From Bordetella parapertussis (GTDB taxonomy: Bacteria > Pseudomonadota > Gammaproteobacteria > Burkholderiales > Burkholderiaceae_B): 39,056 bases of DNA. The notes beneath the pieces were generated by a model that was given only the letters and a program-made list of their open reading frames with translations, did not search any database and was not told the DNA's origin. This document shows, one piece after another, positions 924 through 31,438 of this stretch (its first letter is position 1; every line of letters starts with the position of its first letter). Location: NCBI GenBank assembly GCA_945872285.1, contig CAMBZR010000024.1:1-39056 (forward strand). Direction: 5' to 3'. Both the position numbers and the translations under genes were made by a program.

Positions 924-1093
924 TTGAATTTCCTGGACCATGCAGGGTAAGTCAAATCCAAGTTCAGATGAGGTTTACTTTAAAGATAACGGGCTAAAGG
1001 AAGCAGCCTGACATGACCGATCAATGACTTTCACTTATCTTCCTCAAAATGCTGTCCAACACAGTCAGACCACCGCTAGGGAACAATTTTCTT

Positions 1094-2455
1094 ATGAACG
1101 AAATTCGGATGCTCTCCACAAGCGGGATCCTTGGCTATGGATTCCCTGAGGCCTCGCTCGAAGCCGGCATGGCGCTCAAGCCACACATCATCGGCGTAGA
1201 CGGTGGCTCAGTCGATCCTGGGCCGCATTACCTCGGTTCGGGCAAGCCGTTCAGCTCACCCATGGCGATCAAACGCGATCTGCGTCTCATGTTGAATGCA
1301 GCGGTCAAACACGGTTGCAAGCTTATTATCGGCACCTGCGGCGGCTCGGGGGGCGAACCCCATCTCGAGCTCGTGGTCAACTTCGCCCGAGAGATCGCCG
1401 CCGAAGACAAGCTGCACTTTAAGATGGCCGTGATTCATGCTGAGCTCAAGCCAGAGTTCGTCAAAGAACAACTGCGAAAAAATAAGATACGTCCCTTAGG
1501 ACGACATCCTGCCCTAGAACTCGCTACCGTCGATCGTGCGGTCCGGATTGTGGGCATGATGGGGCCCGAGCCCTTTGCAGAAGCGTTGAATGCCGGCGCA
1601 CAAGTCATTCTTGCCGGACGTTCAAGTGACCCATCTCCCTGGGCAGCTGCTGCAATCAATGAAGGATTTCCGCCGGCGGCAGCCTGGTATGCCGGCAAGA
1701 TGCTCGAGTGCGGCGCAACGCCCGCCATCCCTAAAGGACATGACTGCTTAATGGTCACCCTCAGAATGAATGGGGAAGTTGAGTGCGAGCCTATGAATCC
1801 GATCCGTCGCTGCACGAGCGTTTCGATCGCAAACCATAGTCTTCACGAAAACGCGAGCCCTATTTACCATGTGGAACCGGGCGGAATGCTCGACACCTCC
1901 GCGTGCACTTTTGAAGAAGTCACCGACCGCGCGGTCATCATCCGTGGCATGACGTGGACCACCAATCCATACACGATCAAGCTTGAGGCCGCAGAACTAG
2001 CCGGATATCGGGCCTTTACGATCTGCGGCACACGCGACCCCTTACTCATTAAGACTGTCAAAACATTTCTGGCAAATATTCGGGAGCTCACCGCAACCAA
2101 AGCCTCGGATATCGACGTCAAGCCCACGGACTACACGCTGGTGATACGCACGTACGGGTTGAGCGGTGTCATGGCAGAACGAGAACAAGCACAAGAACCC
2201 ACCTCGCACGAACTAGGATTTCTCGTCGAAGTTGTCGCCAAAGATCAAACGACCGCCAATAGTGTGTTGGCGCTTGCGCGTACACAAATGCTTCATATGG
2301 ATTTCCCTGGGCGCATGTGCCGAGAAGGCAACATGGCCTTTCCGTTCTCACCGTCCGATCAGGAAGGCGGACCGATGTATCAATTCTCCATGCATCACGT
2401 ACTCGAGGTCAGTGATCCGTGCGAGCTCTTCCCAATCGATTACGAAAACGTATAA
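1094..2455 (+). CDS. AtuA-family (DUF1446) protein, putative catabolic enzyme
   Basis: A 453-residue protein of the acyclic terpene utilisation AtuA/DUF1446 family (PF07287). It shows glycine-rich conserved blocks such as GVDGGSVDPGPHYLG near the N-terminus, GTCGGSGGEPHLELV, and AGRSSDPSPWAAAA near the middle. AtuA is needed for citronellol/geraniol catabolism in Pseudomonas, but its reaction is not established and many homologues sit outside terpene clusters. I chose ATG 1094 (MNEIRMLSTSG); an in-frame ATG at 1049 would add 15 unconserved-looking residues. It is the first gene of a six-gene operon with DUF4387 and an ABC importer, so it probably acts in the cytoplasm on whatever that importer brings in. 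None of the other atu genes is nearby, so a terpene substrate should not be assumed. Confidence 0.85.
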   Translation: MNEIRMLSTSGILGYGFPEASLEAGMALKPHIIGVDGGSVDPGPHYLGSGKPFSSPMAIKRDLRLMLNAAVKHGCKLIIGTCGGSGGEPHLELVVNFAREIAAEDKLHFKMAVIHAELKPEFVKEQLRKNKIRPLGRHPALELATVDRAVRIVGMMGPEPFAEALNAGAQVILAGRSSDPSPWAAAAINEGFPPAAAWYAGKMLECGATPAIPKGHDCLMVTLRMNGEVECEPMNPIRRCTSVSIANHSLHENASPIYHVEPGGMLDTSACTFEEVTDRAVIIRGMTWTTNPYTIKLEAAELAGYRAFTICGTRDPLLIKTVKTFLANIRELTATKASDIDVKPTDYTLVIRTYGLSGVMAEREQAQEPTSHELGFLVEVVAKDQTTANSVLALARTQMLHMDFPGRMCREGNMAFPFSPSDQEGGPMYQFSMHHVLEVSDPCELFPIDYENV

Positions 2456-2467
2456 CGGAGACCCAAC

Positions 2468-2776
2468 ATGCCACTCATTAAAGATCTCGCCACGGTTTGC
2501 AAGAGTAAGAATGCGGGTCCATTCGAATTAACGATCGATGTCGTTTTTGACAATGCAGAAGCCTATAACCGGGTCAAACGTTCCGGTGTGCTCTGCCCTC
2601 AGCTTTTCGCCACGCTTTACAAAGTCGACGCAAAAGACGTGCTCTTTACCCCATACGACGCTGCCTTTGCGTTTAAGGCAACGCTCCCTCGCCTTATTCC
2701 CTCAGGCGGCGTCGGAGACACAGATGTGTATGGCGCGCAGCAACACGCCCCCGTGTTGAACGTCAATATTCCCTGA
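2468..2776 (+). CDS. DUF4387 family protein
   Basis: A 102-residue soluble protein with the DUF4387 pattern (PF14330): N-terminal SKNAGPFELTIDVVF, a central VLCPQLFATLY and a C-terminal GGVGDTDVYGAQQHAPVL. Its function is unknown. Members are commonly encoded directly beside AtuA/DUF1446 proteins, as here, where the gap is 12 bases and a GGAG ribosome-binding site precedes the start. The pairing suggests a small subunit or accessory partner of the AtuA-like protein. It has no signal peptide or membrane segment. The family call is confident; the partnership is inference from gene order. Confidence 0.85.
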   Translation: MPLIKDLATVCKSKNAGPFELTIDVVFDNAEAYNRVKRSGVLCPQLFATLYKVDAKDVLFTPYDAAFAFKATLPRLIPSGGVGDTDVYGAQQHAPVLNVNIP

Positions 2777-2787
2777 GCATTCGCGCA

Positions 2788-3549
2788 ATGCCCAAAAAGT
2801 CGATTCCGCTGCTTTGGTTTAGTGCGCTATCAATTGTTATTGGCCTAGCGGTCTGGGAACTTTGCGCGACGCAATTTTCAGACTTTATCTTGCCGTCACC
2901 CTTAAGCGTTTTTGCACAGTTTCTAGACCCAAACTTTGCACTAAGGCTGGCCAAAGCCGTCTCGGGATCGCTCATCCAATTGGCGATTGGCTTCGGGCTT
3001 GCTCTTGCCGTGGCAGTGCCACTTGGCACGCTGCTCGGCCGTTCCGACACCCTCTACCGGATTTTTAACCCGACCATCAACGCAATCTACGCCATACCGC
3101 CGGTAGCGATGATCCCGTTCTTGATCATTTGGTTTGGCTTGTTCCTCGAGTCGCGCGTCGCACTTGTTTTTCTGATGTGTTTTTTCGATATTCTTGTGGT
3201 GATCATCGCCGGTTCAAGAGACGTTCGAACCTCCTGGATTGATGTCGGACGCTCCTTCGGCGGCAGTCGTTACTACTGCTTACGCTACATTGTCTTCCCG
3301 GCGCTAACGCCTTTTCTTTTTGCCGCGTTGCGCGTGGGTTCTGCGCGCGCAATCAACGGCATGATTACCGCAGAACTGTTCTTTGCAGCCGTCAATTTGG
3401 GGCAACTGTTAAAACGCTCGTCTCAGGCGTTCGATGCGTCTGCCGCCTTGGCCGTTGTGATGACCGTCTGTCTGATGGGGCTACTCGCACAAACTATCAT
3501 CGTGCTTCTTGAGCGACGCTTATTGCACTGGCACATAAGACGTTCATGA
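2788..3549 (+). CDS. ABC transporter permease, SsuC/TauC type (first of two)
   Basis: A 253-residue inner-membrane protein with about six hydrophobic segments and the BPD_transp_1 coupling loop (DVGRSFGGSRYYCLRYIVFP, around residues 152-171) that docks on the ATPase. The closest named relatives are permeases for sulfonates, taurine, nitrate and thiamine precursors (SsuC/TauC/ThiX). It begins 11 bases after the DUF4387 stop and ends 10 bases before a second, clearly different permease gene. The importer is therefore probably a heterodimeric channel. The substrate cannot be read from the sequence. Confidence 0.9.
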   Translation: MPKKSIPLLWFSALSIVIGLAVWELCATQFSDFILPSPLSVFAQFLDPNFALRLAKAVSGSLIQLAIGFGLALAVAVPLGTLLGRSDTLYRIFNPTINAIYAIPPVAMIPFLIIWFGLFLESRVALVFLMCFFDILVVIIAGSRDVRTSWIDVGRSFGGSRYYCLRYIVFPALTPFLFAALRVGSARAINGMITAELFFAAVNLGQLLKRSSQAFDASAALAVVMTVCLMGLLAQTIIVLLERRLLHWHIRRS

Positions 3550-3559
3550 GACATCGACC

Positions 3560-4321
3560 ATGAAGAAACTTAGAAACGCTCTTCTTCCGCTCCTTGGCTT
3601 TGCGATCGTGATCGCAATCTGGGAAATCGTCGGCTCACGACTGGGCAACAGCTTGTTTGCGCCGGCGTCCTCTGTGTTGGTTCAGTACATCGATATGCTG
3701 CGCGAAGGCACGATGCTCAACGAGCTTTTCACCTCTTTGCGCCAGATGTTGTTAGGATTTGTGATCGCTTGTTTAGTCGGTATGCCAATGGGCATCGCGA
3801 TGGGCCGCTCAAAGATCACTGACACGATGCTTCGTCCCTGGGTGAGCATCTTTGTGGTGACCTCGACCGCCGCGTTGGTTCCAATTCTTATTATGATTTT
3901 AGGGACTGGCCTGACCTTACGGGCTACCGTAGTTTTTTTAGCCGCCGTCTGGTATATCGTGCTGACCACCTACAACGGCGCCAAAGGCGTTAGCCCAGAG
4001 TTGCTAGCTGTCGGTCACTCATTTTCCGCAAATCGTCATCAAATATTTTGGAAAATCATCCTGCCGGCGCTCTACCCGTATTTAATTACCGGCGCACGGA
4101 TTGGACTCATTCACGCAATCCGCGCCATGGTCATGGCGGAGATGTTTGTAATCGTTGGCTACGGCGCTCTCATTAACCAAGCAGGCATGGAGATCAATAC
4201 AAGCTCCTTACTGGCGTTGTTATTAACATTGGCGTTTATCAGTCTCATCGCAAACGCTATTCTTTCCCAATGGGGGAAAAACCTAGCACCCTGGTACGAG
4301 CAGCAACGCCAGACCCTCTAA
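3560..4321 (+). CDS. ABC transporter permease, SsuC/TauC type (second of two)
   Basis: This protein is also 253 residues, with N-terminal membrane segment LLPLLGFAIVIAIWEIVGSR and the coupling loop LLAVGHSFSANRHQIFWKII followed by LPALYP. It is the same fold as the preceding permease, but the sequences differ widely, so this is not a recent duplication. SsuABC and TauABC importers normally have a single permease gene used as a homodimer. Two adjacent genes imply a heterodimer or alternative pairings. The gap to the upstream gene is 10 bases. Confidence 0.9.
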   Translation: MKKLRNALLPLLGFAIVIAIWEIVGSRLGNSLFAPASSVLVQYIDMLREGTMLNELFTSLRQMLLGFVIACLVGMPMGIAMGRSKITDTMLRPWVSIFVVTSTAALVPILIMILGTGLTLRATVVFLAAVWYIVLTTYNGAKGVSPELLAVGHSFSANRHQIFWKIILPALYPYLITGARIGLIHAIRAMVMAEMFVIVGYGALINQAGMEINTSSLLALLLTLAFISLIANAILSQWGKNLAPWYEQQRQTL

Positions 4322-4361
4322 TTAACAGCCCTACACGTTCTTACAGGTCACAGGAGACACC

Positions 4362-5396
4362 ATGACAATCACTCGCAGAGACTTACTGAAGCATGCCGGA
4401 ATGGGAATGAGCGCTGCAGCCATACTATCGAACATCCCCTTTAGCTTCGCACAAAACAAACGTGCCGTAAAAGCACAGATCCTAGGCTACACCCTCGCGA
4501 TTCACGTACCAGCCATCATGGCACTCAATGAAGGAATGCAAGCACTTGGTTATAGCGCGTCTGATATGAACCGCATCGAATCGATGCAAGTATTGACCCA
4601 ATCAATCGTCGCCGGTGCTGCAGAGGTAGGCGAGTCAGACGTCGTGTCAGCGCTGCGGGCAGGCTCCGTCGGTGCGGACGTCAAAATGGTGGGCATGGTT
4701 TACAACAACACCAGTCAAGTACTCGTGGTCAACGCAGACAAGATCAAAACGTACTCTGATTTTAAAAATAAAGACAACGCGATAGCCTTAAATTCTACCG
4801 GCGACTTTATTTACGTCATGTTGAGCGGTATTTTCGAGCGTAACGGTATAGATATTCAAGATACAACTGTCGTCGAGGTGGGCGGCTCAGGCTCTCGTAT
4901 GCGTGCCTTGTTGGGTGGGCGCGTGGCTGCGGTACCGGTTCATTTTGATCAGGCTGCGGATATTCTCAAGCAGGGTAACTACAAGGTCATGATTGAACCC
5001 TGGAAAATCTACAACCCATGGCTCTCAGAAGCTTGGCTCGTACAAGGCTCGTGGCTCAAAAACGCTGACAATGCACGCGCAATCACAGACCTACTCAAGG
5101 CCACACTCACCTCTTTCCGTAAAGCGAACGAGAGCTTGTCATACTTTGCCGAAGGCTACCGCAAATACGCCACGATCAAGGACGCCAAGAGCGCGACCGA
5201 GGCAGAGCTCAAGCCAGTGTGGGAACAGCTGTCCAAACAGGTCAAGGCCTGGCCTAATGACGGCGGTTTCCGATTAAAGTATTTTGAAGAATTGCTTCCC
5301 GTCTATGTCAAAGCAGGGACAGTCAAACGCGGCGCCAATATCGCGCGAGTCATTGACACCCAATACATCGACAAAGCGCTAAAGGAGCTTGGGTAA
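4362..5396 (+). CDS. ABC transporter substrate-binding protein (NMT1/SsuA-like)
   Basis: A 344-residue exported receptor with a twin-arginine-like signal (TITRRDLLKHAG... ending near SFAQ at about residue 31). The mature part has the NMT1/SsuA-like periplasmic binding fold, including an early AIHVPAIMALNEG segment, and binds the ligand for delivery to the two permeases. A good ribosome-binding site (CAGGAGACACC) precedes ATG 4362. The 40-base gap before it is the longest in the operon. The ligand is unknown; relatives bind sulfonates, nitrate, pyrimidine precursors or aromatic acids. Tat export of a binding protein is less common than Sec and may mean it folds in the cytoplasm. Confidence 0.87.
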   Translation: MTITRRDLLKHAGMGMSAAAILSNIPFSFAQNKRAVKAQILGYTLAIHVPAIMALNEGMQALGYSASDMNRIESMQVLTQSIVAGAAEVGESDVVSALRAGSVGADVKMVGMVYNNTSQVLVVNADKIKTYSDFKNKDNAIALNSTGDFIYVMLSGIFERNGIDIQDTTVVEVGGSGSRMRALLGGRVAAVPVHFDQAADILKQGNYKVMIEPWKIYNPWLSEAWLVQGSWLKNADNARAITDLLKATLTSFRKANESLSYFAEGYRKYATIKDAKSATEAELKPVWEQLSKQVKAWPNDGGFRLKYFEELLPVYVKAGTVKRGANIARVIDTQYIDKALKELG

Positions 5397-6164
5397 TTGA
5401 CATACTTCAAGCTTGAAATCGATCGAATCACAAAGACCTACCGGCAAGGCACTGGCGGCTTACCGGTACTCGATGACTTCTCACTTCCGGTCAAAGACCT
5501 GGAGTTTCTCGTGTTGCTTGGTCCCTCAGGATGCGGCAAATCTACGCTTCTAAGAATCATTAACGGTATCGAGCCCAGTGATAGCGGAAGGATCCTGATC
5601 GATGGACAAGACGTGACGGGCACAACCGGGCACGGTCGTGGAATGGTGTTTCAAAGCTTTGAACTTTTCCCATGGCGCACCGTACTGGATAATGTTGCGT
5701 TCGGCTTAGAAATTGCTGGCCTTGAAAAACAACAGCGCCTAGCGCAAGCCCGGGAATGTATTAGTCTTGTGGGGCTATCCGCCTTCGAGAATTCGTACCC
5801 CCATCAACTCTCGGGTGGTATGCAGCAGCGTGTCGGAATCGCCCGCGCGCTCGCCATCAAGCCAAGCATCCTGCTGATGGACGAGCCCTACGGCGCGTTA
5901 GATGTACAAACGCGTGACTTACTGCAGGACGAGCTGCTCAATATTTGGGAACGCGAACGTAAAACAGTGATTTTTGTAACCCACTCGATCGAAGAAGCCT
6001 TGTATCTGGCCGACCGGATCGTTGTGATGTCGCCGAGGCCCGGCCGGATCGCTCAAATCATCGATGTACCGTTCGTCCGCCCCCGCCGTGACGATATAAA
6101 GACCGAGCCCGCGTTTCTTCAACTCAGACGACAGATTTGGGAGAGTTTGAAAAAGATGGTTTGA
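5397..6164 (+). CDS. ABC transporter ATP-binding protein (SsuB/TauB-like)
   Basis: A 255-residue ATPase with Walker A GPSGCGKST at residues 42-50, the Q-loop at Q86, signature LSGGMQQR at 138-145, Walker B ILLMDEP ending at 164 and an H-loop histidine in VIFVTHS. All catalytic motifs are intact. The start is TTG at 5397, immediately after the TAA of the receptor gene, with AAGGAG at 5381-5386 inside the end of that gene. Translation is therefore likely coupled. It is the last gene of the AtuA-DUF4387-transporter operon and powers both permeases. Confidence 0.92.
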   Translation: MTYFKLEIDRITKTYRQGTGGLPVLDDFSLPVKDLEFLVLLGPSGCGKSTLLRIINGIEPSDSGRILIDGQDVTGTTGHGRGMVFQSFELFPWRTVLDNVAFGLEIAGLEKQQRLAQARECISLVGLSAFENSYPHQLSGGMQQRVGIARALAIKPSILLMDEPYGALDVQTRDLLQDELLNIWERERKTVIFVTHSIEEALYLADRIVVMSPRPGRIAQIIDVPFVRPRRDDIKTEPAFLQLRRQIWESLKKMV

Positions 6165-6317: not shown

Positions 6318-6587
6318 CTAAACTCTTGAAGTACCAACCTTTTTACTCGGTACTACCGTCATTATTTCTGAAACAGTCACATGTTTTGGATTGTTATTTG
6401 GCAACAACACTTTTATTGCGCAATCCCCCTGCGAAACGATCCCGACTAGAACTTCGTCATCGCCGACTAATATAGCCCTTACTCGATACTCGCGCATCAG
6501 CATCAGGACGTCTTCCACAGGACTAGTTGATCGCACAGAAACTATTGTGTTGGCTTTTTGCTCAATAACTTGTCTTACGGATGTCAT
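6318..6587 (-). pseudogene. Truncated CBS-domain protein
   Basis: The 89 residues start like a normal bacterial two-CBS protein of about 140-150 residues (MTSVRQVIEQKANTIVSV..., MREYRVRAILVGDDEVLVGI, VSQGDCAIKVLLP). The frame is lost just after VTVSEIMT, where the second CBS motif should begin, and ends in an unrelated tail. Only one CBS motif remains, and adenosine-nucleotide-binding CBS modules need the pair. No good ribosome-binding site precedes the start. I could not find the second half downstream in another frame. It is most likely a gene remnant, although a short expressed protein cannot be excluded. Confidence 0.7.
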
Positions 6588-7005
6588 AAAAATCTGCCAG
6601 TAAAATTTAAAAATGGATAGAGTTTTGGATATTTAATCTTGCAGTTCCAAGGTTATTCGGAAAAGTTAAACAAATGCAGCCAGCGGCCGATAGCGATAAA
6701 GCTGTAACCCGACCATACTAATATTACCTCTGCGTGTACTGTTTTGCGGCTAAACAGAGTGACGAAGTTGAAACTTTACGTTCGTAAAGTTATTCACAAA
6801 ACCAGATGGTCAGCGCTTCGGCTAGCCCTGTTTTGAGGCGACCACCGCGTCCGGGGATTTAGTAGATGTTCATTTTCACGCCTAAATAATAGTCGGGCAG
6901 CGGATTGACAATCCCGAGACAGGTCACTCCATCAAAGCGCCTAACTTTATTTAACGTGCAACCGTTATAATCAAGTCGTTAGTTCGCGAACCGGATCACT
7001 TAGCC
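6588..7005. other. 418-base gap without a clear gene
   Basis: No convincing gene is visible. The stretch holds a near-perfect palindrome at 6772-6791 and a 39-codon minus-strand open tail at 6862-6978 that ends in DYYLGVKMNIY, a possible outer-membrane-protein remnant. A TATAAT at 6966-6971 lies 34 bases before the FolB-like start and could be its -10 element; no good -35 accompanies it. It reads as a decayed region plus the folB promoter. Confidence 0.5.
6772..6791. repeat. Palindrome, operator- or hairpin-like
   Basis: AACTTTACG and CGTAAAGTT are exact inverted repeats around a two-base TT centre. The tight spacer suits a dimeric regulator site better than a transcription terminator, and no T-run follows. 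It lies between the truncated CBS gene and the FolB-like gene. No regulator gene is adjacent. Confidence 0.55.
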
Positions 7006-7386
7006 ATGACGCTACAAGCATTCATCGAGCTGCATGCAATCAAAATAGATACAAAGATTGGAACCTATGCACCGGGCGCGGCAGCCCCCAATGGGCACCT
7101 ACTAAGCCTAGCACTCTGCGTAGATCCAAAACTTGTTTTGATCGATGAAGACTCGATGCAAAATGTATTTGATTACGATCCTCTCTTACTTGAAATTCAA
7201 CGACTTGCGGCAGATAAACATTACGAAACGCAGGAGCGACTCATCACACGTATCGTCAAAGCATGTGCCGTATATGCAGAAATCATATCGCTAGAAATCA
7301 TCCTAAGAAAACAACCGGTGCTAAACGACTCTGGGTCGCTTGGGGTGCGGCTATGCATGGACAGAGCCGCACTAAATCGTGTTTAG
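7006..7386 (+). CDS. Dihydroneopterin aldolase (FolB)-like protein
   Basis: A 126-residue cytoplasmic protein with the FolB/DHNA fold pattern: N-terminal IELHAIKIDTKIGTY, the central Y..QERLITRIV segment and C-terminal LEIILRKQPVL. Canonical FolB converts dihydroneopterin to hydroxymethyl-dihydropterin and glycolaldehyde in folate synthesis. The Lys of the LRKQPV stretch matches the catalytic lysine region. The Glu usually found soon after the GVY/GTY block is absent here (TYAPGAAAPNGH). It resembles a divergent Burkholderiales FolB-like group, so the activity may differ. It stands alone among eroded genes, with no other folate gene nearby. Confidence 0.75.
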   Translation: MTLQAFIELHAIKIDTKIGTYAPGAAAPNGHLLSLALCVDPKLVLIDEDSMQNVFDYDPLLLEIQRLAADKHYETQERLITRIVKACAVYAEIISLEIILRKQPVLNDSGSLGVRLCMDRAALNRV

Positions 7387-7425
7387 CATGCTAAATCAAG
7401 ATAACTCTCATCTAGGATAAACGCA

Positions 7426-7845
7426 GTGAACAAACAACTACAAGATCTAGACCAACTCGGAAATGTTTGCGTTGGTATTTTCCACAGAATTGCCCTTTTC
7501 GGCATCGGGGCCGCCACAGTGTGGGCAGCTGGGTGGACGTTTTTTGAACTTTTTCAAAAACATCATGCCTCAATTCAAGATCTTTTGCTGTTATTCATAT
7601 ATTTAGAAATCGGCGCTATGGTTGGCATTTATTTCAAGACAAACCACATGCCAGTTAGATTCTTGTTGTACATCGCCATCACTGCACTCACTCGACACAT
7701 GGTGGATATCATGAGCCACGTTCCCGTCAATATTAACGAGATGCTAGCGGTCGGCGCCACAACCCTAGCGATAGCAGTCGCTATCTTAATCATCCGCTAT
7801 ACAAGCACAAAGTTTTCTAACAATAATCAGAACGATATTAGCTGA
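7426..7845 (+). CDS. PsiE-family membrane protein
   Basis: A 139-residue inner-membrane protein with about four transmembrane segments, matching the phosphate-starvation-inducible PsiE family (PF06146) in LLLLFIYLEIGAMVGIYF and the following TNHMPVRFLLYIAITALTRH block. The role of PsiE is not established. I take the GTG at 7426 as start, 39 bases after the FolB-like gene. No pho box is evident upstream. The gene seems complete, unlike its flanking CBS and GDT1 remnants. Confidence 0.8.
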   Translation: MNKQLQDLDQLGNVCVGIFHRIALFGIGAATVWAAGWTFFELFQKHHASIQDLLLLFIYLEIGAMVGIYFKTNHMPVRFLLYIAITALTRHMVDIMSHVPVNINEMLAVGATTLAIAVAILIIRYTSTKFSNNNQNDIS

Positions 7846-7984
7846 CTATTTTTTGGCCCATATTAGGTGGCGCCGCTTATTGCTTATCCTGATCTTGATT
7901 AATACAAATTGAGAGATTATTTATGCCATACCTTCAAGTAGTGCCCCGGGCCACCATCTGAAACTGAAAAAACCCTGCGTTCGC

Positions 7985-8267
7985 GCTGGAGTTTTCGGTG
8001 CGACTCTGATCACCTTCTTCCTGGCCGAGATTGGCGACAAGACGCAGATCGCCACCGTCGCAATGGCCGCGCACTATGCATCGCCACTGCTGGTCGTGAT
8101 CGGCACGACTCTAGGCATGCTGATCGCTGACGCGCCTGTTGGTGTTTATTGGTGATAAGCTGGCGAACAAGATACCGATGCGAATGGTGCACCCTATCGC
8201 CGTCGCAATCTTTGTAGTGATGGGAGTTGCGACCCTGCTTAGCGCAGGATCGAAACTCGGGTTCTAA
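7985..8267 (+). pseudogene. Remnant of a TMEM165/GDT1-family transporter
   Basis: The sequence encodes AGVFGATLITFFLAEIGDKT, then QIATVAMAAHYASP and TTLGMLIADAPV, which is the second conserved repeat of the GDT1/UPF0016 family with its E-x-G-D-K-T motif. These are Mn/Ca transporters of about 190 residues. The frame then shifts by one base at about 8138-8142 and continues VFIGDKLANKIPMRMVHPIA to GVATLLSAGSKLGF and a TAA at 8265-8267. The first half of the gene, with the first E-x-G-D-K motif, is missing. Two lesions make this a pseudogene. I saw no yybP-ykoY-type Mn riboswitch upstream. Confidence 0.83.
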
Positions 8268-8338: not shown

Positions 8339-9313
8339 ATGCCACTAACTAAAATAATCAAGCACATCGCCTTTGTTTCGGCCTTTTTAATCTCACCAGC
8401 CTCGGCACTCGCACAAGCCTACCCAACGCAAACGATAAAATTTATTGTCCCCGCGCCACCGGGGGGCGCAATTGATCTGATCGCACGCGTTCTTTCAGAA
8501 AAACTCACTGCTTCGCTTGGTCAGAGCGTGATTGTCGAAAACAAACCAGGCGCCTCAAGCAATATCGGTACTGATCTGGTGGCAAAAGCAGCGCCAGATG
8601 GCCACACCATCGGGATCGTGGCGGGCAGCCACAACATTAATAAATTTATCTTCAAGGATCTGCCTTTTGATCCCGAAAAAAGCTTCGAACCAATTATCTA
8701 TACGCACGTAGTGCCCTTGGTGTTTGCGATCAGTCCACAGATTCCAGCCAAAACCTTGCCTGAATTCATTAGCTGGATGAGGGCGAATCCAGATAAGGCC
8801 AAAGTCGCGACCTCAGGCCGCGGTAGCGCGCAAGACATGGCAGCCCTTATGTTTCGCACAGCGACCGGCTTAGACATGCTGCTCGTTCCATACAAAGGCT
8901 CCTCGGTCGCCCATCCTGATTTACTAGCTGGGCGCACGGCGCTATTTATCGACACCATCAGCGCCATTCAAACGCAAATCAAAGCGGGCACTGTCGGTGC
9001 TGTCGCCGTGTCAACGCTTAAACGTACGGCTGCTCTACCTGACCTACCTACTGCAGATGAACAGGGTTTAAAGGGCTATGACGCCAATACGAACGGTGGG
9101 TTACTGGCGCCGGCGGGCACCCCTAAGGCAATCATTAACAGACTGAACGCTGAAGTCAATGCAGCATTCAAGTTGCCTGATGTGAAGGCCAAGTTAAACG
9201 CGGCTGGCATCGAAATTCAAGGTGGCACCCCACAAGCGTACGCCGACTTAATCAAAGCCGATCTTGCTAAGTGGCGCAAGGTAGTTGAAGCGGCGGGGAT
9301 TAAGCCGGAGTAA
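8339..9313 (+). CDS. Bug-family (TctC-like) periplasmic receptor
   Basis: A 324-residue protein with a Sec signal ending near ALAQ at residue 28. The Bug fold starts at YPTQTIKFIVPAPPGGAIDLIAR and carries the ENKPGASSNIGTDLVAKAAPDG motif. Bug proteins bind small carboxylates and related compounds for tripartite tricarboxylate transporters. No tctA or tctB gene is in the window, so this is an orphan receptor here. A strong ribosome-binding site (TAGGAG) precedes ATG 8339. The cupin and amidohydrolase genes follow on the same strand, which suggests a shared catabolic role; the ligand could be the amidohydrolase substrate or product. Confidence 0.9.
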   Translation: MPLTKIIKHIAFVSAFLISPASALAQAYPTQTIKFIVPAPPGGAIDLIARVLSEKLTASLGQSVIVENKPGASSNIGTDLVAKAAPDGHTIGIVAGSHNINKFIFKDLPFDPEKSFEPIIYTHVVPLVFAISPQIPAKTLPEFISWMRANPDKAKVATSGRGSAQDMAALMFRTATGLDMLLVPYKGSSVAHPDLLAGRTALFIDTISAIQTQIKAGTVGAVAVSTLKRTAALPDLPTADEQGLKGYDANTNGGLLAPAGTPKAIINRLNAEVNAAFKLPDVKAKLNAAGIEIQGGTPQAYADLIKADLAKWRKVVEAAGIKPE

Positions 9314-9381
9314 GCACCGATGCGCTGTGGGCTCGAGCTACACAGACGGTAAAAACGAAACGAACTGGATAAAGGAAAAAG

Positions 9382-9888
9382 ATGAACCAAGTTCTTGAGA
9401 GCAGCCAAAGCATTGCCAATACCGTGAAGTTCAGTCTGCGAAACTTACCTTTACTCGACGGTGGCGCAACCATGGCAAGCCTTGGAAGTGCGCCCGCGCT
9501 ATGGGCTCACTCAAAAGTGTATTCAACCGGCGGGGAAAACGCACTGCATAGCCATGACATCGAAGACCACTGCTTTTTGATCTTGCAGGGCGAGGCGACC
9601 TTTAACTTCGGGGATGGTAGCTCAATGATTGCCCGTCAATTCGAAGGCGTGCTCTTACCCAGAGGCACCCAGTATCGGTTTACGGCCAACCCCGGCGACA
9701 ATCTGGTCATGTTTAGAGTGGGTGGTGCAAGTATTACTAATTACAAAGACGTTGACTCGTACGCTTTGCCGCGCGAAGCTGCAAAAAGCAGAAAATTTTC
9801 AGATGGTACGCAAGGCGATGCCTCGAAGGGTGGCGCACACTCAAGCCCCACCGTCTTTAAAACAGGGGCATTTTTTGCACCTGACTGA
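9382..9888 (+). CDS. Cupin-domain protein
   Basis: A 168-residue single-domain cupin. The first motif shows the metal-binding pattern in LHSHDIEDHCFLILQGEA, with His-x-His plus a downstream Glu and His. The second motif (LLPRGTQYRFTANPGDN) has PRG but a Tyr where the usual histidine sits, so metal binding may be altered. No signal peptide is visible. It lies between the Bug receptor and the amidohydrolase, with AAAGGAAAAAG before the ATG. It could be a small dioxygenase, an isomerase or a ligand sensor; I cannot choose between these. Confidence 0.82.
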   Translation: MNQVLESSQSIANTVKFSLRNLPLLDGGATMASLGSAPALWAHSKVYSTGGENALHSHDIEDHCFLILQGEATFNFGDGSSMIARQFEGVLLPRGTQYRFTANPGDNLVMFRVGGASITNYKDVDSYALPREAAKSRKFSDGTQGDASKGGAHSSPTVFKTGAFFAPD

Positions 9889-9967
9889 GATGTTGGATGG
9901 CAATACACTTTGGGTCAGCGTTGGGCACACGAGTGAATTCAGATCCTACTAAAGGAGAAAATTATTG

Positions 9968-11671
9968 ATGTATGAACTGATCATCAGAAACGCAAATTTA
10001 GCCGATGGCATGGGAAACCCACTGGTTAAAACCGATGTTGCTATCGGAGATAGACGTATCGTAAAAATCGGAAATATCACTGGATCGTCCAAAAACGAAG
10101 TCGATGCAATGGGACTGGTTCTTGCACCTGGCATTATCGATGTACATACTCATTACGATGCGCAACTCACTTGGGACTCAACTGCCTCGCCTTCGCCGGC
10201 GCTCGGCGTGACCACAGTGATTATTGGTAACTGTGGCTTTGGCATTGCACCGGCAACGCCAGACACTCGAGACCTCATCCTTGCAAATCTGTCGGAGGTC
10301 GAGGCAATGTCACTGGATTCGCTCAAGGCCGGTGTCGATTGGGATTTCGAAAGCTTTCCAGAGTTTCTTGCTATGCTGCGCCGCAAAGGCGCATACCCGA
10401 ATGTAGCGTGTTTCGCCTCGCACTCAGCGATGCGAACAGTCGTCATGAAAGAGGCAGGATCGCAACGAGCAGCAACGCCAGCAGAGCTAGAAAAAATGAC
10501 CACTATGTTTCGAGAAGCCATGCAAGCCGGTGCAATGGGCCTTGGCTCGTCGACCTTTGAAAATCACAACGGCCAGGGTGGTATTCCAGTCCCGTCCAGG
10601 CTCGCCGATGACGATGAATTTCGTGCCTTTGCGAAAGTCATGAGTGAGTTTAATCATGGCCTCACCGTCATTACCTGTGGCGATCGAACTTCGATTGAAT
10701 TTCTAGAAGAGCTTTCAAATATTAGTCGTCGTCCGGCAGTCTTTGCACCTTTGCTTCATTACAGCAATCAGCCAGACCGAGCAAAAAACCTGATGCATCG
10801 TTGCCAAGCGGCCCGAAGCCGCGGCGCTCTGGTCTATGCCCAAGCTTCATGCCAACCACTTAGCATGGACTTCACGCTAGAAAAGGCCTACCCCTTGATG
10901 ACGGTACAGCCTTGGTCAGAACTCAAACACGGTAATCACGATGCCATGATGGCATCGTTTTCTGATCCTGAATTTGCCCGGCGCATGCGCGATGCGCTGT
11001 CGAATCCGGATGGTGGACGTATCTTTAACGGCAACTGGGAACGCGTCGAGGTCACAATGACCGCGCTAGATAAAAATCAGAGCCTTGTCGGAAAAAATAT
11101 AGCGGCTATTGCTAAAGAGCGTAATGCCGATCCTGTAGAGGTCTTCTTGGGATTAGGCGTTGAGGAGAATTTGCAAACCACCTTCACCGCCAAGCTTCTT
11201 AATGTTGAAGAAGAAAGGGTCTGGGAATTACTGCAAGATCCGGGCAACATGGTTAGCTTGTCGGATGGAGGCGCGCACCTGACCTTTTTCTGCGATGCCG
11301 GTTTTGGAATGTACTTTTTGGGCCACTGGGTGCGTGAGCTTGGTAAGCTAGACCTTACCTCTGCCATCAAAAAACTGACTAGTGACGTCGCAGATATCTA
11401 TGGCTTGATCGATCGTGGTCGTCTCGTCGAAGGTGCCTTCGCTGACATGATTCTGTTTGATCCCAAGCAGATTGGGATATCCAACACACAGCGGCTAAAC
11501 GATTTACCCAGCGGCGCGACTCGCCTTGTTAGATCAGCACCAGGGCTACACACGGTTTGGGTCAATGGCGTGAGCGTCTACCATGACGGTGACTACACGA
11601 CGGTTAAACCTCCCGGTCAGATATTAACTGCATTTTCTGCCATACGGCCGCATGTCGCGATGGACCACTAA
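9968..11671 (+). CDS. N-acyl-D-amino-acid deacylase-like amidohydrolase
   Basis: A 567-residue metallohydrolase of the D-aminoacylase group (amidohydrolase superfamily). The metal motif HTHYD is at residues 60-64, the GNCG block with its conserved Cys at 87-90, and a late LSDGGAH aspartate block follows. Known relatives hydrolyse N-acyl-D-amino acids or other amide/cyclic ureide bonds in the cytoplasm. AAAGGAG at 9951-9957 serves either ATG 9968 or the TTG three bases upstream; I chose the ATG. It is the enzyme of the Bug-cupin-amidohydrolase run. The substrate is not predictable from motifs alone, and many annotated D-aminoacylases of this length are untested. Confidence 0.85.
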   Translation: MYELIIRNANLADGMGNPLVKTDVAIGDRRIVKIGNITGSSKNEVDAMGLVLAPGIIDVHTHYDAQLTWDSTASPSPALGVTTVIIGNCGFGIAPATPDTRDLILANLSEVEAMSLDSLKAGVDWDFESFPEFLAMLRRKGAYPNVACFASHSAMRTVVMKEAGSQRAATPAELEKMTTMFREAMQAGAMGLGSSTFENHNGQGGIPVPSRLADDDEFRAFAKVMSEFNHGLTVITCGDRTSIEFLEELSNISRRPAVFAPLLHYSNQPDRAKNLMHRCQAARSRGALVYAQASCQPLSMDFTLEKAYPLMTVQPWSELKHGNHDAMMASFSDPEFARRMRDALSNPDGGRIFNGNWERVEVTMTALDKNQSLVGKNIAAIAKERNADPVEVFLGLGVEENLQTTFTAKLLNVEEERVWELLQDPGNMVSLSDGGAHLTFFCDAGFGMYFLGHWVRELGKLDLTSAIKKLTSDVADIYGLIDRGRLVEGAFADMILFDPKQIGISNTQRLNDLPSGATRLVRSAPGLHTVWVNGVSVYHDGDYTTVKPPGQILTAFSAIRPHVAMDH

Positions 11672-11682
11672 GATGAGTCTTA

Positions 11683-11714
11683 TTCGGACTCCTGTTGATT
11701 CGGATTCCTGTTGA
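11683..11714. repeat. Two tandem 16-base repeats
   Basis: TTCGGACTCCTGTTGA is followed directly by TTCGGATTCCTGTTGA, with one C/T difference. The pair begins 11 bases after the amidohydrolase stop, in the 155-base gap before the dehalogenase gene. It could be slippage duplication or a paired direct-repeat binding site. Confidence 0.7.
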
Positions 11715-11826
11715 ATTGGGCACTTGTCACACAGCACGCATTAGTGGCCGGGTACATATCGTCATCGAGGGTCATGTCAGTATCTAAGACATCATCTGTT
11801 GAGATAAAGCAATCAAGAAAAATTTC

Positions 11827-12519
11827 ATGAAAATAAAAGCTGTAGTTTTTGATGCCTACGGAACACTGTTCGACGTGTATTCAATTCAAGTGTTAGCTGA
11901 CACGCTCTACCCAGGCCAGGGGTCTGATATCGCAGTGAAGTGGCGCGACAAGCAAATTGAATACACGCGGTTGATTACGCAATCAGATCCGCACAACGCC
12001 CTGGGTAGCCAGTACTATCGGCCGTTTTGGGAATTAACGCGTTTGTCATTAGAGTACACGTTAGACCGCCTCAAACTAGACCGCGCATCTCGTCAAGTTG
12101 AAAAACTACTACAACAATATGCCCACCTCACGCCATTTAAAGAAAATCTGGCTGTGCTTAAAAAGATCAAAAGCATGGGTCTCACGACTGCCATACTCTC
12201 AAATGGCAGTATGGATATGCTGACTTCAGCGGTCAAGAGCGCAGGGATGCAAGACGTTTTAGACCACATCATCTCCGTCGATCCTATTCGCCTGTTCAAG
12301 ACGTCTCCCGAAAGTTACGGGCTTGTCCAACAGACCATCGCGGTCAACAAAGATGAAGTGCTGTTTGTATCCAGCAATTCGTGGGATGCGTTAGGTGCCA
12401 CCTGGTTTGGCTTCACCACGCATTGGGTCAATCGCCAAGGCTTGCCGTTTGAAGCCTTATCTCCGCAGCCGCATTTTTCAGGCTCAGATCTCACTTCGGT
12501 GTTGGCTTCGCTTTGTTAG
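11827..12519 (+). CDS. HAD-superfamily 2-haloacid dehalogenase-like protein
   Basis: A 230-residue cytoplasmic HAD protein of the type II haloacid dehalogenase group, which hydrolyses L-2-haloacids to D-2-hydroxyacids. It has the nucleophile D9 in FDAYGTLFDV, R40, the SNG block at 125-127, K158, Y164 and S182-x-N184-x-x-D187. These positions fit the residues known from L-2-haloacid dehalogenases, so activity of that kind is plausible. The start ATG follows AAGAAAAATTTC, a weak ribosome-binding site. It could alternatively act on another small phosphorylated or halogenated acid. It is separated from the amidohydrolase by the tandem repeat and need not share its operon. Confidence 0.85.
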   Translation: MKIKAVVFDAYGTLFDVYSIQVLADTLYPGQGSDIAVKWRDKQIEYTRLITQSDPHNALGSQYYRPFWELTRLSLEYTLDRLKLDRASRQVEKLLQQYAHLTPFKENLAVLKKIKSMGLTTAILSNGSMDMLTSAVKSAGMQDVLDHIISVDPIRLFKTSPESYGLVQQTIAVNKDEVLFVSSNSWDALGATWFGFTTHWVNRQGLPFEALSPQPHFSGSDLTSVLASLC

Positions 12520-12534
12520 GCTGGTGAAGCAGTC

Positions 12535-12569
12535 AATCGAGCGAGAGTTTCGCGGGCTCAGGCTCGATT
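12535..12569 (+). terminator. Weak candidate terminator hairpin
   Basis: AATCGAGC and GCTCGATT are exact inverted repeats of eight bases separated by 19 bases, starting 16 bases after the dehalogenase stop. Only a short T-run follows, so termination strength is doubtful. Confidence 0.3.
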
Positions 12570-12762
12570 TGCTGGCGCCGGATCGACGTCAGCAGCGAAG
12601 GGTTAAAACCAATTGATTTTTGATCAAATATTTACAACACTGGCACTTAGAAGTACTATAAAAAAACGACACCAAACTGAGATCGAATCGGCCGAGCCTG
12701 TGTCGCTTTGCGCTTGTTAGTGATTTTTAATACTTGATTTATCCGAACATAAGGGTGCGCCG

Positions 12763-13302
12763 ATGAAGGCTCTACTTTCTCTTTCGCAGGCAATTGATCG
12801 GGTAACCGATTTTTTTGCGGTCTTTGCTCAATGGGCTGTACTTGCTGCTTGTCTGATTAGTGCAAGTAATGCTGTGGTGCGGTATACCGCTGACTACAGC
12901 TCGAATGCCTTTCTAGAAGTTCAGTGGTATCTCTTTTCTGCCTGTGTCATGTTAGGTGCGGCGCAAGTCCTTCGTGTCAATGAGCATGTGAGGGTAGATG
13001 TTTTTTATGGACGCTACTCAGGCCGCGCTCAAGCGCTCTTTGATTTGTTTGGATTGACGCTCTTTTTGCTGCCTGTGATGATCGTAATGATTTATTACTC
13101 TTGGCCGCTTTTTTGGAAAATGTTTTTAAGTGGAGAAATGTCGAGTAACGCTGGCGGTCTCATCCGATGGCCAGCAATGTTGATGTTGCCGCTGGGCTTC
13201 GTTCTGGTATTGCTTCAGGGATTTTCTGAAATTATCAAACGCGTCGCGTGGCTGAACGATCGCTATGACGGTGAATTTCATTACGAAAGGCCACTGCAAT
13301 GA
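12763..13302 (+). CDS. TRAP transporter small permease (DctQ-type)
   Basis: A 179-residue inner-membrane protein with four hydrophobic segments and the DctQ signature region (LEVQWYLFSACVMLGAAQVL, around residues 48-67). In TRAP systems it partners the large permease for Na+-driven uptake of organic acids. It starts with ATG 12763 after a 243-base gap with an AT-rich segment at about 12610-12670, and overlaps the large permease gene by four bases (ATGA). The order small-then-large permease with a TakP-like receptor nearby fits a 2-oxoacid or related monocarboxylate importer. Confidence 0.9.
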   Translation: MKALLSLSQAIDRVTDFFAVFAQWAVLAACLISASNAVVRYTADYSSNAFLEVQWYLFSACVMLGAAQVLRVNEHVRVDVFYGRYSGRAQALFDLFGLTLFLLPVMIVMIYYSWPLFWKMFLSGEMSSNAGGLIRWPAMLMLPLGFVLVLLQGFSEIIKRVAWLNDRYDGEFHYERPLQ

Positions 13303-14756
13303 CAATGGAAAATTTTGCACCTCTGATGTTCGGAGGCCTAATCTTTACGTTGGTTTTAGGCTTTCCTGTTGCGTTCTCCCTCTCGGCGCTTGGGTTAGCC
13401 TGTGGGTTCTTTGCAGTTTACATGGAGTGGTTTCCGGTCGCTTTTATGTCGGCCTTGCCTTTAAATGTCTTTGGCATTTTGTCGAATGACTTATTGTTGG
13501 CGATTCCCTTCTTTACCTTCATGGGAACAATCTTAGAGAAATGCGGTTTAGCCGAAGACATGCTGGATTCGATGGGGCAATTGTTCGGATCGGTGCGTGG
13601 TGGTATCGGATATTCGGTCATTATTGTTGGGTTTATTCTTGGTGCGATCACCGGAACCGTGGCGGGTCAAGTGATTGCCATGGCAATGATTTCATTGCCG
13701 GTCATGATGCGCTGGGGTTACAACGTGCGCTACGCGACTGGCGTACTGGCAGCCTCAGGAACGATCACACAGCTGGTGCCGCCCTCGCTGGTGTTGATTG
13801 TCTTGGCCGACCAACTGGGGCAGTCAGTAGGTGACATGTATAAGGGCGCTTGGGGTCCCTCTATCTTGCAAGTTCTTCTTTTTGCCCTCTACACCTTCAT
13901 ACTTTCGCGCTTTAGGCCAGATCATGTACCAGGCTTACCCAAAGAGGCGCGTACGCTTCATGGTTGGGCCTTGTGGGGTAAGTGTCTTCGCGGCATCGTT
14001 CCCTCAGCTGTTTTGATTTTTACTGTGTTGGGTAGCATGGGCGGGCTACCTGGCCTGAACACTGCAATTGCTACACCGACCGAAGCTGGTGCAATGGGTG
14101 CGGTCGGTTCGTTAATTTTGGCTGCTTTTCACAAAAGACTGAATTGGTCTTTGATGCGAGAGGCGATGCTTGGAACCATGCGCTTGACGGCAATGGTTGT
14201 TTTCATCCTGATTGGTTCGCGTGTATTTTCTTTGGTGTTTCAGGGTGTCGATGGGGGGAAATGGGTCGAACACCTTCTGTCTAATTTACCCGGTGGCCAG
14301 ATCGGCTTTTTATTCGTTGTTAATATTTTTATATTCTTCTTGGCTTTTTTCTTAGATTTTTTTGAGATCGCTTTTATTATCTTACCCCTGTTAGGCCCGG
14401 TGGCAGCAAAACTGGGGATCAACGGCATCTGGTTTGGTGTCTTACTCTGCGTCAATATGCAAACGAGCTTTATGCATCCGCCTTTTGGCTTTGCACTGTT
14501 CTATCTAAGAGGGATTGCGGATACGCTCTACAAAAATAAGGCGTTGCCGCGCAAGATTGAATCTACTGATATTTATCTTGGTGCGATTCCGTGGGTCATT
14601 ATGCAACTCATCTTGGTGGTGATTGTCATATTTTTTCCACAGACCGTAACTGTATTTCTAGATAAAGAGGTGACGTTGGATCTCGGTCGGGCAGAGCAGC
14701 AGCTTGAACAATTGGGTAGAGAGCGGAGCGAGAAGCCTCCAGCAACAATGAATTGA
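13299..14756 (+). CDS. TRAP transporter large permease (DctM-type)
   Basis: A 485-residue protein with many transmembrane segments and DctM features: LAIPFFTFMGTILEKCGLAE, GAITGTVAGQVIAMAMISLP and QLVPPSLVLIVLADQLGQSV. It is longer than the common DctM of about 430 residues, in the range seen for the 2-oxoacid/TakM type. The extra length is mainly a central segment around residues 205-245 and a charged C-terminal tail. The start is the ATG of the ATGA overlap; ATG 13305 is an alternative. The gene runs into a strong terminator at once. Confidence 0.9.
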   Translation: MTMENFAPLMFGGLIFTLVLGFPVAFSLSALGLACGFFAVYMEWFPVAFMSALPLNVFGILSNDLLLAIPFFTFMGTILEKCGLAEDMLDSMGQLFGSVRGGIGYSVIIVGFILGAITGTVAGQVIAMAMISLPVMMRWGYNVRYATGVLAASGTITQLVPPSLVLIVLADQLGQSVGDMYKGAWGPSILQVLLFALYTFILSRFRPDHVPGLPKEARTLHGWALWGKCLRGIVPSAVLIFTVLGSMGGLPGLNTAIATPTEAGAMGAVGSLILAAFHKRLNWSLMREAMLGTMRLTAMVVFILIGSRVFSLVFQGVDGGKWVEHLLSNLPGGQIGFLFVVNIFIFFLAFFLDFFEIAFIILPLLGPVAAKLGINGIWFGVLLCVNMQTSFMHPPFGFALFYLRGIADTLYKNKALPRKIESTDIYLGAIPWVIMQLILVVIVIFFPQTVTVFLDKEVTLDLGRAEQQLEQLGRERSEKPPATMN

Positions 14757-14757
14757 A

Positions 14758-14794
14758 AAAAATCGTGCAAGAGAAAAACTCTTGCACGATTTTT
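14758..14794. terminator. Strong bidirectional terminator between convergent genes
   Basis: A perfect 16-base-pair stem (14758-14773 with 14779-14794) closes an AAAAA loop. The stem starts with A bases and ends in TTTT, so on each strand the hairpin runs into a T tract. It sits between the end of the large permease and the end of the convergent receptor gene and should stop transcription from both sides. Confidence 0.88.
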
Positions 14795-14851
14795 GTAGTA
14801 CGGTGCAGAGACGCGATCTTTTACAATTAGATCGCCCTAGAGTTTATGCTT

Positions 14852-15934
14852 TTAAAGTTTTGCTGCTTGCATGTAATCATCAAACGCAGCCTCTGCAAAG
14901 CGGAACCACAGGTTTCCATTGCGTCGAAACTCAGAATAGTCAGCATACATTTTCTTCCATGCTGGATTTTTATCTGATAATTCGTTATATAAGGCCATCG
15001 ACTCTTTGAACGCGAGGTCCATAACGTCTTTGGGGAATTTAAATAATTTTGCACCGCCAGCAACTAAGCGCTTCAATGCGGCAGGGTTCAACGCATCATA
15101 CTTGGCCAACATATTTTGCTGAGCCATACTGGCAGCACACGCCACGATGGCTTTGTACTCGGGCGTCAGCGCATCATAGGCTTTTTGATTTACAAATAAA
15201 TCAGTGAGCGGACCGCCCTCCCACCAACCTGGATACGCGTAAAACGGCGCGACTTTATTGAACCCAAGTTTTTCATCGTCGTAAGGGCCGACCCACTCGG
15301 CCGCGTCGATCGTGCCTTTTTCTAGAGCCTGATAAATTTCACCGCCTGGGATATTCTGCGCGACACCGCCCATGCGTTCAACCACTTTTCCAGCAAAGCC
15401 TCCAACACGAAATTTTAAGCCTTTAAAATCAGCTACAGATTTAATTTCTTTGCGAAACCATCCGCCCATCTGAGCCCCCGTGCAACCCATCGGAAAATTA
15501 ACGATGTTATACGCGGCATAAAATTCACGGGTTAGCTTCATTCCGTTGCCTTCGTACATCCAGGCGTTCATCAGACGCGTATTCAATCCAAACGGAATTG
15601 CGGTGCCCATCGCAAAGGTTTCGTCCTTACCAAAAAAGTAATAGGCGGCAGTACTTGCGCATTCAATCGTTTGATTTTGAACGGCATCCACAACACCGAA
15701 GGCAGGCACGAGTTCGCCTGGAGCATGGCATGAAACCACAAATTTTCCACCGGTCATATCGCTGACATGCTTGGCAAACACCTCGGAGGCGCCGTATAGC
15801 GTATCAAGAGACTTTGGAAAACTTGATGACAAGCGCCAACGCACGTTTGCTTGTGCATGGACAATGGCGGGCGTACTGATAGAAGCAATGACGCCAGCCA
15901 AGCCTGCGCCCTTGATAACTGAACGACGATCCAT
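14852..15934 (-). CDS. TRAP transporter substrate-binding protein (TakP-like)
   Basis: A 360-residue exported receptor. I start it at MDRRSVIKGAGLAG, a twin-arginine-type signal ending near VHAQ, with GGAGAAAAAC just upstream; an earlier in-frame start at 15991 has no support. The mature part is DctP-like with the GGEIYQALEKGTIDAAEWVG block followed by PYDDEKLGF, as in receptors that bind 2-oxo-monocarboxylates, lactate or mannitol-type ligands. It is most likely the receptor for the convergent DctQM permeases. Having receptor and permeases on opposite strands means they are transcribed separately, which is unusual for TRAP systems. Confidence 0.88.
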   Translation of the reverse strand: MDRRSVIKGAGLAGVIASISTPAIVHAQANVRWRLSSSFPKSLDTLYGASEVFAKHVSDMTGGKFVVSCHAPGELVPAFGVVDAVQNQTIECASTAAYYFFGKDETFAMGTAIPFGLNTRLMNAWMYEGNGMKLTREFYAAYNIVNFPMGCTGAQMGGWFRKEIKSVADFKGLKFRVGGFAGKVVERMGGVAQNIPGGEIYQALEKGTIDAAEWVGPYDDEKLGFNKVAPFYAYPGWWEGGPLTDLFVNQKAYDALTPEYKAIVACAASMAQQNMLAKYDALNPAALKRLVAGGAKLFKFPKDVMDLAFKESMALYNELSDKNPAWKKMYADYSEFRRNGNLWFRFAEAAFDDYMQAAKL

Positions 15935-16275
15935 GTTTTTCTCCAAACTTAATTGTTTTTGATGACGAGTTATTTGGACTACGGTGAGCAAACTGAGGCG
16001 ATCTAAAAGCCTTAACGCCCAAGCTTTGCCTATTATGGAGGCAAACGGATCAGATGAATACAGACAATTAGTCGGGATTACCCCAAGTCCAAGTATGTTT
16101 TTAAGCTAAATGTCGCAACACAAGAGCTTGTCGAGCCACTAGTCCGACTTGAGTCGGGCGTCTTGGCTTAGGCTCTCAATGTCCTCACCAGAACTAGCAA
16201 AAAATAAACGACTCAGTTTGCTTCTCGAATCAGGCTATAACAGTAGTCGGCATCAAAATCTAAAAGGGGGAGATA
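15935..16275. other. 341-base divergent intergenic region with an operator-like palindrome
   Basis: No gene is visible. The region must hold the promoters for the TRAP receptor (minus) and the next Bug receptor (plus). CCGACT and AGTCGG form an inverted repeat with a TG centre at 16144-16157. A TATAAC lies at 16235-16240, 35 bases before the Bug start, without a good -35. A GGGGGAG stretch at 16265-16271 serves as ribosome-binding site for that gene. Confidence 0.55.
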
Positions 16276-17277: not shown

Positions 17278-17314
17278 AACCTGCGCGTTGGTCTGCCGCG
17301 TAGGCTTTAAGGCT

Positions 17315-18670: not shown

Positions 18671-18678
18671 ATTGATTT

Positions 18679-19632: not shown

Positions 19633-19800
19633 AAACCTGAACTCCGCTAATTGAATCACTAGGGTTTGATACCTGTAGAGTAAATCAAAGTATGACTTTC
19701 GTCTTCAAGGTCACAGAGCGTCACGATTAAATCAGTCTATTTTTTTTCGCACCCCCTTAATTTGTGCTTAATCAAATTTTTTTAAAAAGTCACACGGTGC

Positions 19801-20128: not shown

Positions 20129-20626
20129 TTATTTCGCAGCACTGACTGCAACTGAACCCTTCATGCCAGCACCGTAATGGCCGGGTAACAAACACGCAAA
20201 ATCAACCTTACCTGCCTGCGTGAAATTCCAAATGACGACACCCGTTTTGCCTGGCGCAACGGTCACCATATTGGGCTCATCGTGCTCCATCTCTGGAAAC
20301 TTCAGCATTTGCTGATAATGCTCTTTTAATTCTTTGTCGGTGCCCAGCACAAATTCATGTTTAAGCTTACCTACATTATTCAGCACAAACTTGATTATTT
20401 CTCCTGCTTTGACCGTTATGTTGGCTGGACTAAACCGCATCGAGTCAGACATCGAAAGCTCAAGCGTACGGGTCACTTGTGAAGCCTGGCCGGGTTGACC
20501 AATCGCTTGGGTGTCTGACCCATGCGAATGCCCTCCTGCATGATTGCCGGCAGACCAAGCAGGCACCGTAAAACCAAGAGCACTGACCAACACCGTTGTA
20601 GAAAAAATCTTTAAATATGAACGCAT
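20129..20626 (-). CDS. Cupredoxin-domain copper protein
   Basis: A 165-residue exported protein: signal peptide to about residue 26, a short His-rich stretch (GNHAGGHSHG) and a plastocyanin/azurin-like fold. The type 1 copper ligands appear as H90 (KLKHEF), C145, H150 and M155 (FACLLPGHYGAGM). It is probably a periplasmic copper carrier or an electron partner of the multicopper oxidase encoded upstream. The gap to that gene is 27 bases and AAGGAAATCAA precedes the start. Such cupredoxins are frequent in betaproteobacterial copper clusters. Confidence 0.88.
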   Translation of the reverse strand: MRSYLKIFSTTVLVSALGFTVPAWSAGNHAGGHSHGSDTQAIGQPGQASQVTRTLELSMSDSMRFSPANITVKAGEIIKFVLNNVGKLKHEFVLGTDKELKEHYQQMLKFPEMEHDEPNMVTVAPGKTGVVIWNFTQAGKVDFACLLPGHYGAGMKGSVAVSAAK

Positions 20627-20653
20627 TTGATTTCCTTAAATAAGATTGTTGAG

Positions 20654-24004: not shown

Positions 24005-24084
24005 AAAACCCCCGAACAGTCAGGCTTAGATATCCAAAAACATAAAGTGGATAAACCGGCTAGTCGAGCGAGGCGCGTCTTCGT

Positions 24085-24106: not shown

Positions 24107-24126
24107 GAATGACGACGAAGCTGTCG

Positions 24127-24516: not shown

Positions 24517-24522
24517 ACTCTG

Positions 24523-31425: not shown

Positions 31426-31438
31426 GTTGCGCCCCTTT

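Follow-up and report, generated by a model that had tools for sequence, protein, structure and literature searches.

Citramalate is a tertiary 3-hydroxy acid, and its cleavage yields acetate and pyruvate. A two-subunit enzyme has been deposited in the PDB as citramalate lyase CmlA/CmlB (9erq and 9evf), and the title of the second entry, "Citramalate lyase - ADP - pyruvate complex", suggests a role for a nucleotide in the lyase. AtuA proper, of the acyclic terpene utilization (Atu) pathway, is named in a passage of one paper as an acetate-releasing lyase acting on 3-hydroxy-3-isohexenylglutaryl-CoA (PMC4847356), whereas a passage of a review assigns that AtuA step to LiuE instead (PMC4097962). 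Given the role that the first paper names for AtuA, acetate-releasing cleavage could plausibly, by analogy, be common to the AtuA superfamily. Here we describe an operon at positions 1094-6164 of a 39,056-nucleotide stretch of Bordetella parapertussis DNA (contig CAMBZR010000024.1; the whole stretch is called the window below), in which relatives of both CmlA and CmlB are encoded together with an ATP-binding cassette (ABC) importer.

Among the proteins with 92-94% identity to the PDB chain are some named for Aeromonas and Salmonella, and the Salmonella one is labelled "3-methylaspartate ammonia-lyase". An annotated Escherichia coli plasmid carries a CmlA relative that is 89% identical to the Aeromonas protein. 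The gene order on this plasmid is methylaspartate mutase S, glutamate mutase L, methylaspartate mutase E, methylaspartate ammonia-lyase, DUF1446, DUF4387, a symporter, and a class I fumarase. Kronen and Berg (2015) noted that the DUF1446 gene there had no known function and that it was unclear what becomes of citramalate (PMC4682846). CmlAB, under the enzyme name given by its depositors, would fit as the step that fills the citramalate gap of that cluster.

The operon and its enzyme pair

The operon consists of six open reading frames, all on the + strand, separated by 12, 11, 10, 40, and 0 bases, a layout like that of a single transcription unit. This confirms an earlier note on this DNA, which had listed six adjacent genes (AtuA, DUF4387, two permeases, a receptor, and an ATPase) with gaps of 0-40 bases. 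The first gene (cmlA-like, 1094..2455) encodes an AtuA-family large subunit of 453 residues that matches PF07287 with 78 bits. An alternative ATG at 1049 is possible, and the alignments of relatives favour the start at 1094. The second gene (cmlB-like, 2468..2776) encodes the DUF4387 small subunit of 102 residues (PF14330, 115 bits). These are followed by two NitT/TauT-like ABC permeases (2788..3549 and 3560..4321, both with PF00528, BPD_transp_1), an NMT1/THI5-like periplasmic receptor (4362..5396, PF09084), and an ABC ATPase (5397..6164, PF00005) whose TTG start abuts the receptor stop codon.

The A and B proteins match both subunits of 9erq/9evf across nearly their full length, in sequence as well as in fold. 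Homology of the A subunit to CmlA spans its full length, and the DUF4387 B subunit, encoded 12 bases from the A gene, matches chain B with a phmmer E value of 1.4e-25. The predicted structure of the B subunit (mean predicted local distance difference test score, pLDDT, of 91.3) reaches a template modelling (TM) score of 0.86 to 9evf_B. A 32-row alignment of CmlA proteins holds 41 invariant positions; one lies outside the 9erq stretch compared, and the 40 comparable ones are all kept in 9erq (40/40). All of the family-invariant CmlB positions (15/15) are likewise kept in the solved enzyme. A reaction type can be given for the enzyme pair, and the earlier description of AtuA and DUF4387 as proteins of unknown reaction is outdated: both are homologous to the subunits of a solved two-subunit citramalate lyase. 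On this homology, the operon's CmlAB probably splits a small hydroxy acid such as citramalate, which would yield acetate and a keto acid such as pyruvate. Pfam still lists DUF4387 without a function, and the names given to A-protein relatives include terpene utilization protein and 3-methylaspartate ammonia-lyase. With the pair tied to the solved lyase, many clusters that are already annotated can be tested as lyase pathways. A literature search limited to open-licence papers found no paper on CmlAB as such.

The two subunits are constant partners. In each of the 80 loci fetched with the operon's A protein as query (80/80), the match that follows CmlA is CmlB. DUF4387 is present in 25 of the 398 genomes of an evenly drawn phylum sample, and an AtuA/CmlA-type match adjoins it, or shares its open frame, in 25/25 of the phylum-sample loci, although in one of them (L174) that match spans just 97 residues. 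When the relatives' loci are added to the phylum sample, the AtuA/CmlA-type match lies beside DUF4387 or is fused to it in 54/54 loci; 30 of the 39 DUF4387 matches had loci and entered this pairing test. The two are fused into one 694-residue protein at L134:8076-10157, as confirmed by Pfam, and L177 and L178 hold a similar fusion as judged by open frames. The assembly of the near relative G001 contains only one DUF4387 gene, and it lies next to a CmlA-type gene.

Acyclic terpene utilization was considered as the identity of the operon and rejected, because PF07287 scores only 78 bits and neither a carboxylase nor a hydratase is among the six genes. In agreement with the earlier note, which saw none of the known terpene genes, Pfam detects no atu genes, carboxylase and hydratase included, among these six.

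The importer and the recurrence of the gene order

With its NMT1-type receptor, two BPD_transp_1 permeases, and ABC ATPase, the importer belongs to the NitT/TauT superfamily. The two permeases are only 28% identical to each other, and the receptor leader contains TRRDLLK, which we take to resemble a twin-arginine signal. For the permeases and the receptor no listed NCBIfam model reaches its curated cut-off, the top scores of permease 1 being far under the SaoP, TauC, and SsuC cut-offs, and for the ATPase the models are all under their cut-offs among the best 25 of 185. The bit scores are 258 of 357 for TauB (ATPase), 89.7 of 342 for TauC, and 39 of 163.5 for SsuA_fam (receptor). The nearest solved relatives of the ATPase are nitrate transport ATP-binding proteins and CmpD. 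Identity as SsuABC, TauABC, or a nitrate importer was rejected on these scores, and the label SsuABC given earlier is too specific.

Two of the 80 loci show the six genes in the same unbroken order, CmlA-CmlB-permease-permease-receptor-ATPase. In L001 (Agaricicola taiwanensis) the six proteins are 66-79% identical to those of the operon, and in L022 (Roseomonas sp. E05) they are 49-69% identical. The order, which the earlier note had proposed to look for in other genomes, is recurrent and not unique to the window, but it is rare, and the arrangement is more than chance. The permease-permease-receptor-ATPase order by itself is also found in L111, L112, L114, L115, and L120-L123.

The receptor family is small: of 5653 candidates, 149 are relatives at E<=1e-30. 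Relatives at 61% identity occur in Chelatococcus and Ancylobacter. The receptor has no match in 250 family genomes or in 398 phylum genomes. Among 385 genomes of Agaricicola's class there are three matches (44-66% identity), namely Agaricicola and the genomes of L005 and L009, and in these the importer lies beside CmlAB or about 5 kb off. The CmlA search had already turned up all three genomes, and the sample was centred on one of them; this co-location is weak as independent support for a shared role. In 397 genomes of Agaricicola's order there are five matches, including four additional ones at 39-41%.

A candidate uptake-and-cleavage module and its alternatives

We lean, by a modest degree, toward the view that the operon is an uptake-and-cleavage module in which citramalate or a close tertiary hydroxy acid is imported and then cleaved by CmlAB. 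The NitT/TauT-like ABC importer (receptor, two different permeases, and one ATPase) would take up a tertiary hydroxy acid of small size, with citramalate or a near analogue as the likeliest candidate, and importer and enzyme, judging from the sequence, probably share this one substrate. The two-subunit CmlAB-type lyase would break the bond next to the hydroxyl carbon, probably with the participation of ADP/ATP, and would release acetate together with an oxo acid, which in the case of citramalate would be pyruvate. No further enzyme would be needed, because both products would feed central metabolism. If the substrate is citramalate, the operon would be complete alone, and its lack of any other enzyme gene would be accounted for. 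Tentatively, and with rather more doubt than confidence, we propose a minimal thioester-free form of scavenging in which one importer and one possibly nucleotide-dependent lyase convert a tertiary hydroxy acid from outside the cell, citramalate for instance, directly to acetate plus pyruvate. If true, this would provide a ligand class for a receptor family of about 149 proteins, and it would suggest that the whole AtuA superfamily consists of lyases that free acetate from branched 3-hydroxy acids. As it holds a lyase and an importer only, the operon is a clean place for a substrate search.

Several observations weigh against the module as proposed. The pair is just 41-43% identical to the solved CmlAB and lies on a different branch of the tree, so its substrate may differ. 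None of the operon's six genes is identified by Pfam as a mesaconase, a glutamate mutase, or a methylaspartate ammonia-lyase. This importer is present in only 5 of the 80 CmlAB loci as fetched, 18 of which are stretches of <12 kb, and an importer branch at 39-41% identity exists without CmlAB, beside hydantoinase-type genes. CmlAB itself keeps varied company. Genes of 104 stretches, 97 of them with CmlA, were predicted with a codon-trained gene caller and clustered; clusters were named from one scanned member each and otherwise by reading, the Bug-type name resting on reading and on the window's own members. Partners in the 97 CmlA-bearing stretches include an NtaA/DmoA-type monooxygenase (59), a Bug-type receptor (43), PrpD (22), a PEP-mutase/isocitrate-lyase-like protein (16), and a CitE-like lyase (13), and this variety points to more than one substrate. 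The NtaA/DmoA-family FMN monooxygenase cluster, found in L002-L080 (59/97), points to another CmlAB pathway.

The enzyme may cleave a different acid, such as 3-hydroxy-3-methylglutarate, an alkylmalate, citrate, or a homologue, imported likewise and with the mechanism unchanged. Residues flanking the invariant motifs do differ between the operon protein and the solved enzyme (GRSSDPSPWA vs GRAYDPACFA; WYAGKMLECG vs LHCGKILECA), but every comparable invariant position is common to the citramalate enzyme, and we consider a different acid unlikely, though worth keeping in mind. Chance adjacency after transfer, with importer and enzyme serving different compounds, would agree with the many other transporters found with CmlAB and with the importer branch at 39-41% that occurs without it; the identical contiguous order in three genera (the window, L001, and L022) at 49-79% identity makes it very improbable.

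Another alternative is that the importer carries a cyclic precursor (a lactone, lactam, or hydantoin) that is opened by another enzyme, with CmlAB as the last step and the operon as the truncated remainder of a larger cluster. L005 and L009 have a divergent GntR regulator followed by cmlAB, HyuB, HyuA, PrpD, and the importer, and L038 has a similar layout with the importer on the opposite strand, so that all of these parts lie in one region. In L120-L123 the importer is followed by PrpD, a serine-dehydratase-like pyridoxal phosphate (PLP) gene, HyuA, and HyuB, and CmlAB is missing; no CmlA match was found in 4/4 of these genomes, while the same query matched 13/13 other genomes. The same parts are present on an Agrobacterium fabrum plasmid, also without CmlAB, where the Hyu genes lie upstream. 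L001 and L022 each have two further genes, one for a divergent GntR regulator and one of the SMP-30/gluconolactonase family. Queries for these families gave no GntR, SMP-30, or Hyu match in the window, and the operon's left border is an insertion sequence (IS)-like relic, as a truncation would have it. However, L001 and L022, the closest in order, have no Hyu match, and the importer is joined directly to cmlAB in L001, L022, and the window; we regard a cyclic precursor as rather improbable. The claim that the importer is private to the pair holds in part: the two are joined in the window, L001, and L022, but the 39-41% branch lies beside hydantoinase-type genes in four genomes without a CmlA match.

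Borders of the operon and comparison with described systems

The relic lies at 967..1011 on the + strand, 82 bases before cmlA, and comprises 14 codons that read DEVYFKDNGLKEAA and a stop codon; by its motif, it looks like the end of an IS3-type transposase. In G001 (contig C7) more of this relic is preserved ahead of the cmlA start, with other genes beyond. The IS-like relic, the absence of the receptor from the 250 family genomes, and the closest named full operons being those of Agaricicola and Roseomonas suggest that the operon may have arrived horizontally, its regulator lost or left behind. Immediately left of the operon, 341-923 encodes a RelE-like toxin (PF06296) and helix-turn-helix antitoxin pair. 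In G001 this stretch and the cmlA start are on different contigs, which places a rearrangement point near 957-965. On the right, 6358-6624 and 6945-7869 are in swapped order on G001 contig C136, a sign of rearrangement there too, and a short repeat of about 53 bases (7943-7998) matches three places in G001.

Further to the right, 8339-19659 is a second uptake-rich stretch with TctC/Bug-type receptors (two by Pfam, a third at 18679-19659 by reading), a cupin, an amidohydrolase, a HAD hydrolase, TRAP genes (DctQ and DctP by Pfam), and MmgE/PrpD. At 20129-26434 a multicopper-oxidase-like gene (below cut-off) and cupredoxin-like genes (by reading) precede a chromate efflux transporter above cut-off. 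A sulfur oxidation cluster occupies 30151-38163, with SoxC, SoxY, SoxA, and SoxX at curated cut-offs and a sulfide-quinone-reductase-like flavoprotein, below cut-off, nearby.

Among described systems, AtuA shares the PF07287 family with the operon's A protein, but the strong PF07287 copies in G001 score 477, 432, and, for a partial one, 324 bits against 78 for the operon protein, and such strong PF07287 proteins are a branch separate from the CmlA type. The importer resembles NitT/TauT systems (SsuABC, TauABC, and nitrate importers) in its NMT1-type receptor, its BPD permeases, and an ATPase nearest to the TauB and nitrate types; it differs in scoring under the listed curated cut-offs and in having two distinct permease genes. 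The HyuAB-linked importers of L120-L123, which are from Agaricicola's order, and of the Agrobacterium fabrum plasmid have the same permease-permease-receptor-ATPase order and a receptor that is 38-41% identical, but they are coupled to PrpD, the serine-dehydratase-like gene, and HyuAB, whereas the operon's importer is coupled to CmlAB. The citramalate lyase of 9erq/9evf shares both subunits, a near-whole-length fold, and all comparable invariant residues with the operon's pair; in E. coli, a relative is part of a glutamate mutase/methylaspartate cluster that includes a symporter, while the operon has an ABC importer and no such genes. The earlier description of the system as undescribed does not hold for the enzyme pair, a relative of a solved lyase, but it stands for the combination: the new part is a CmlAB-type lyase joined to this importer, undescribed as far as searches of the open-licence literature reach.

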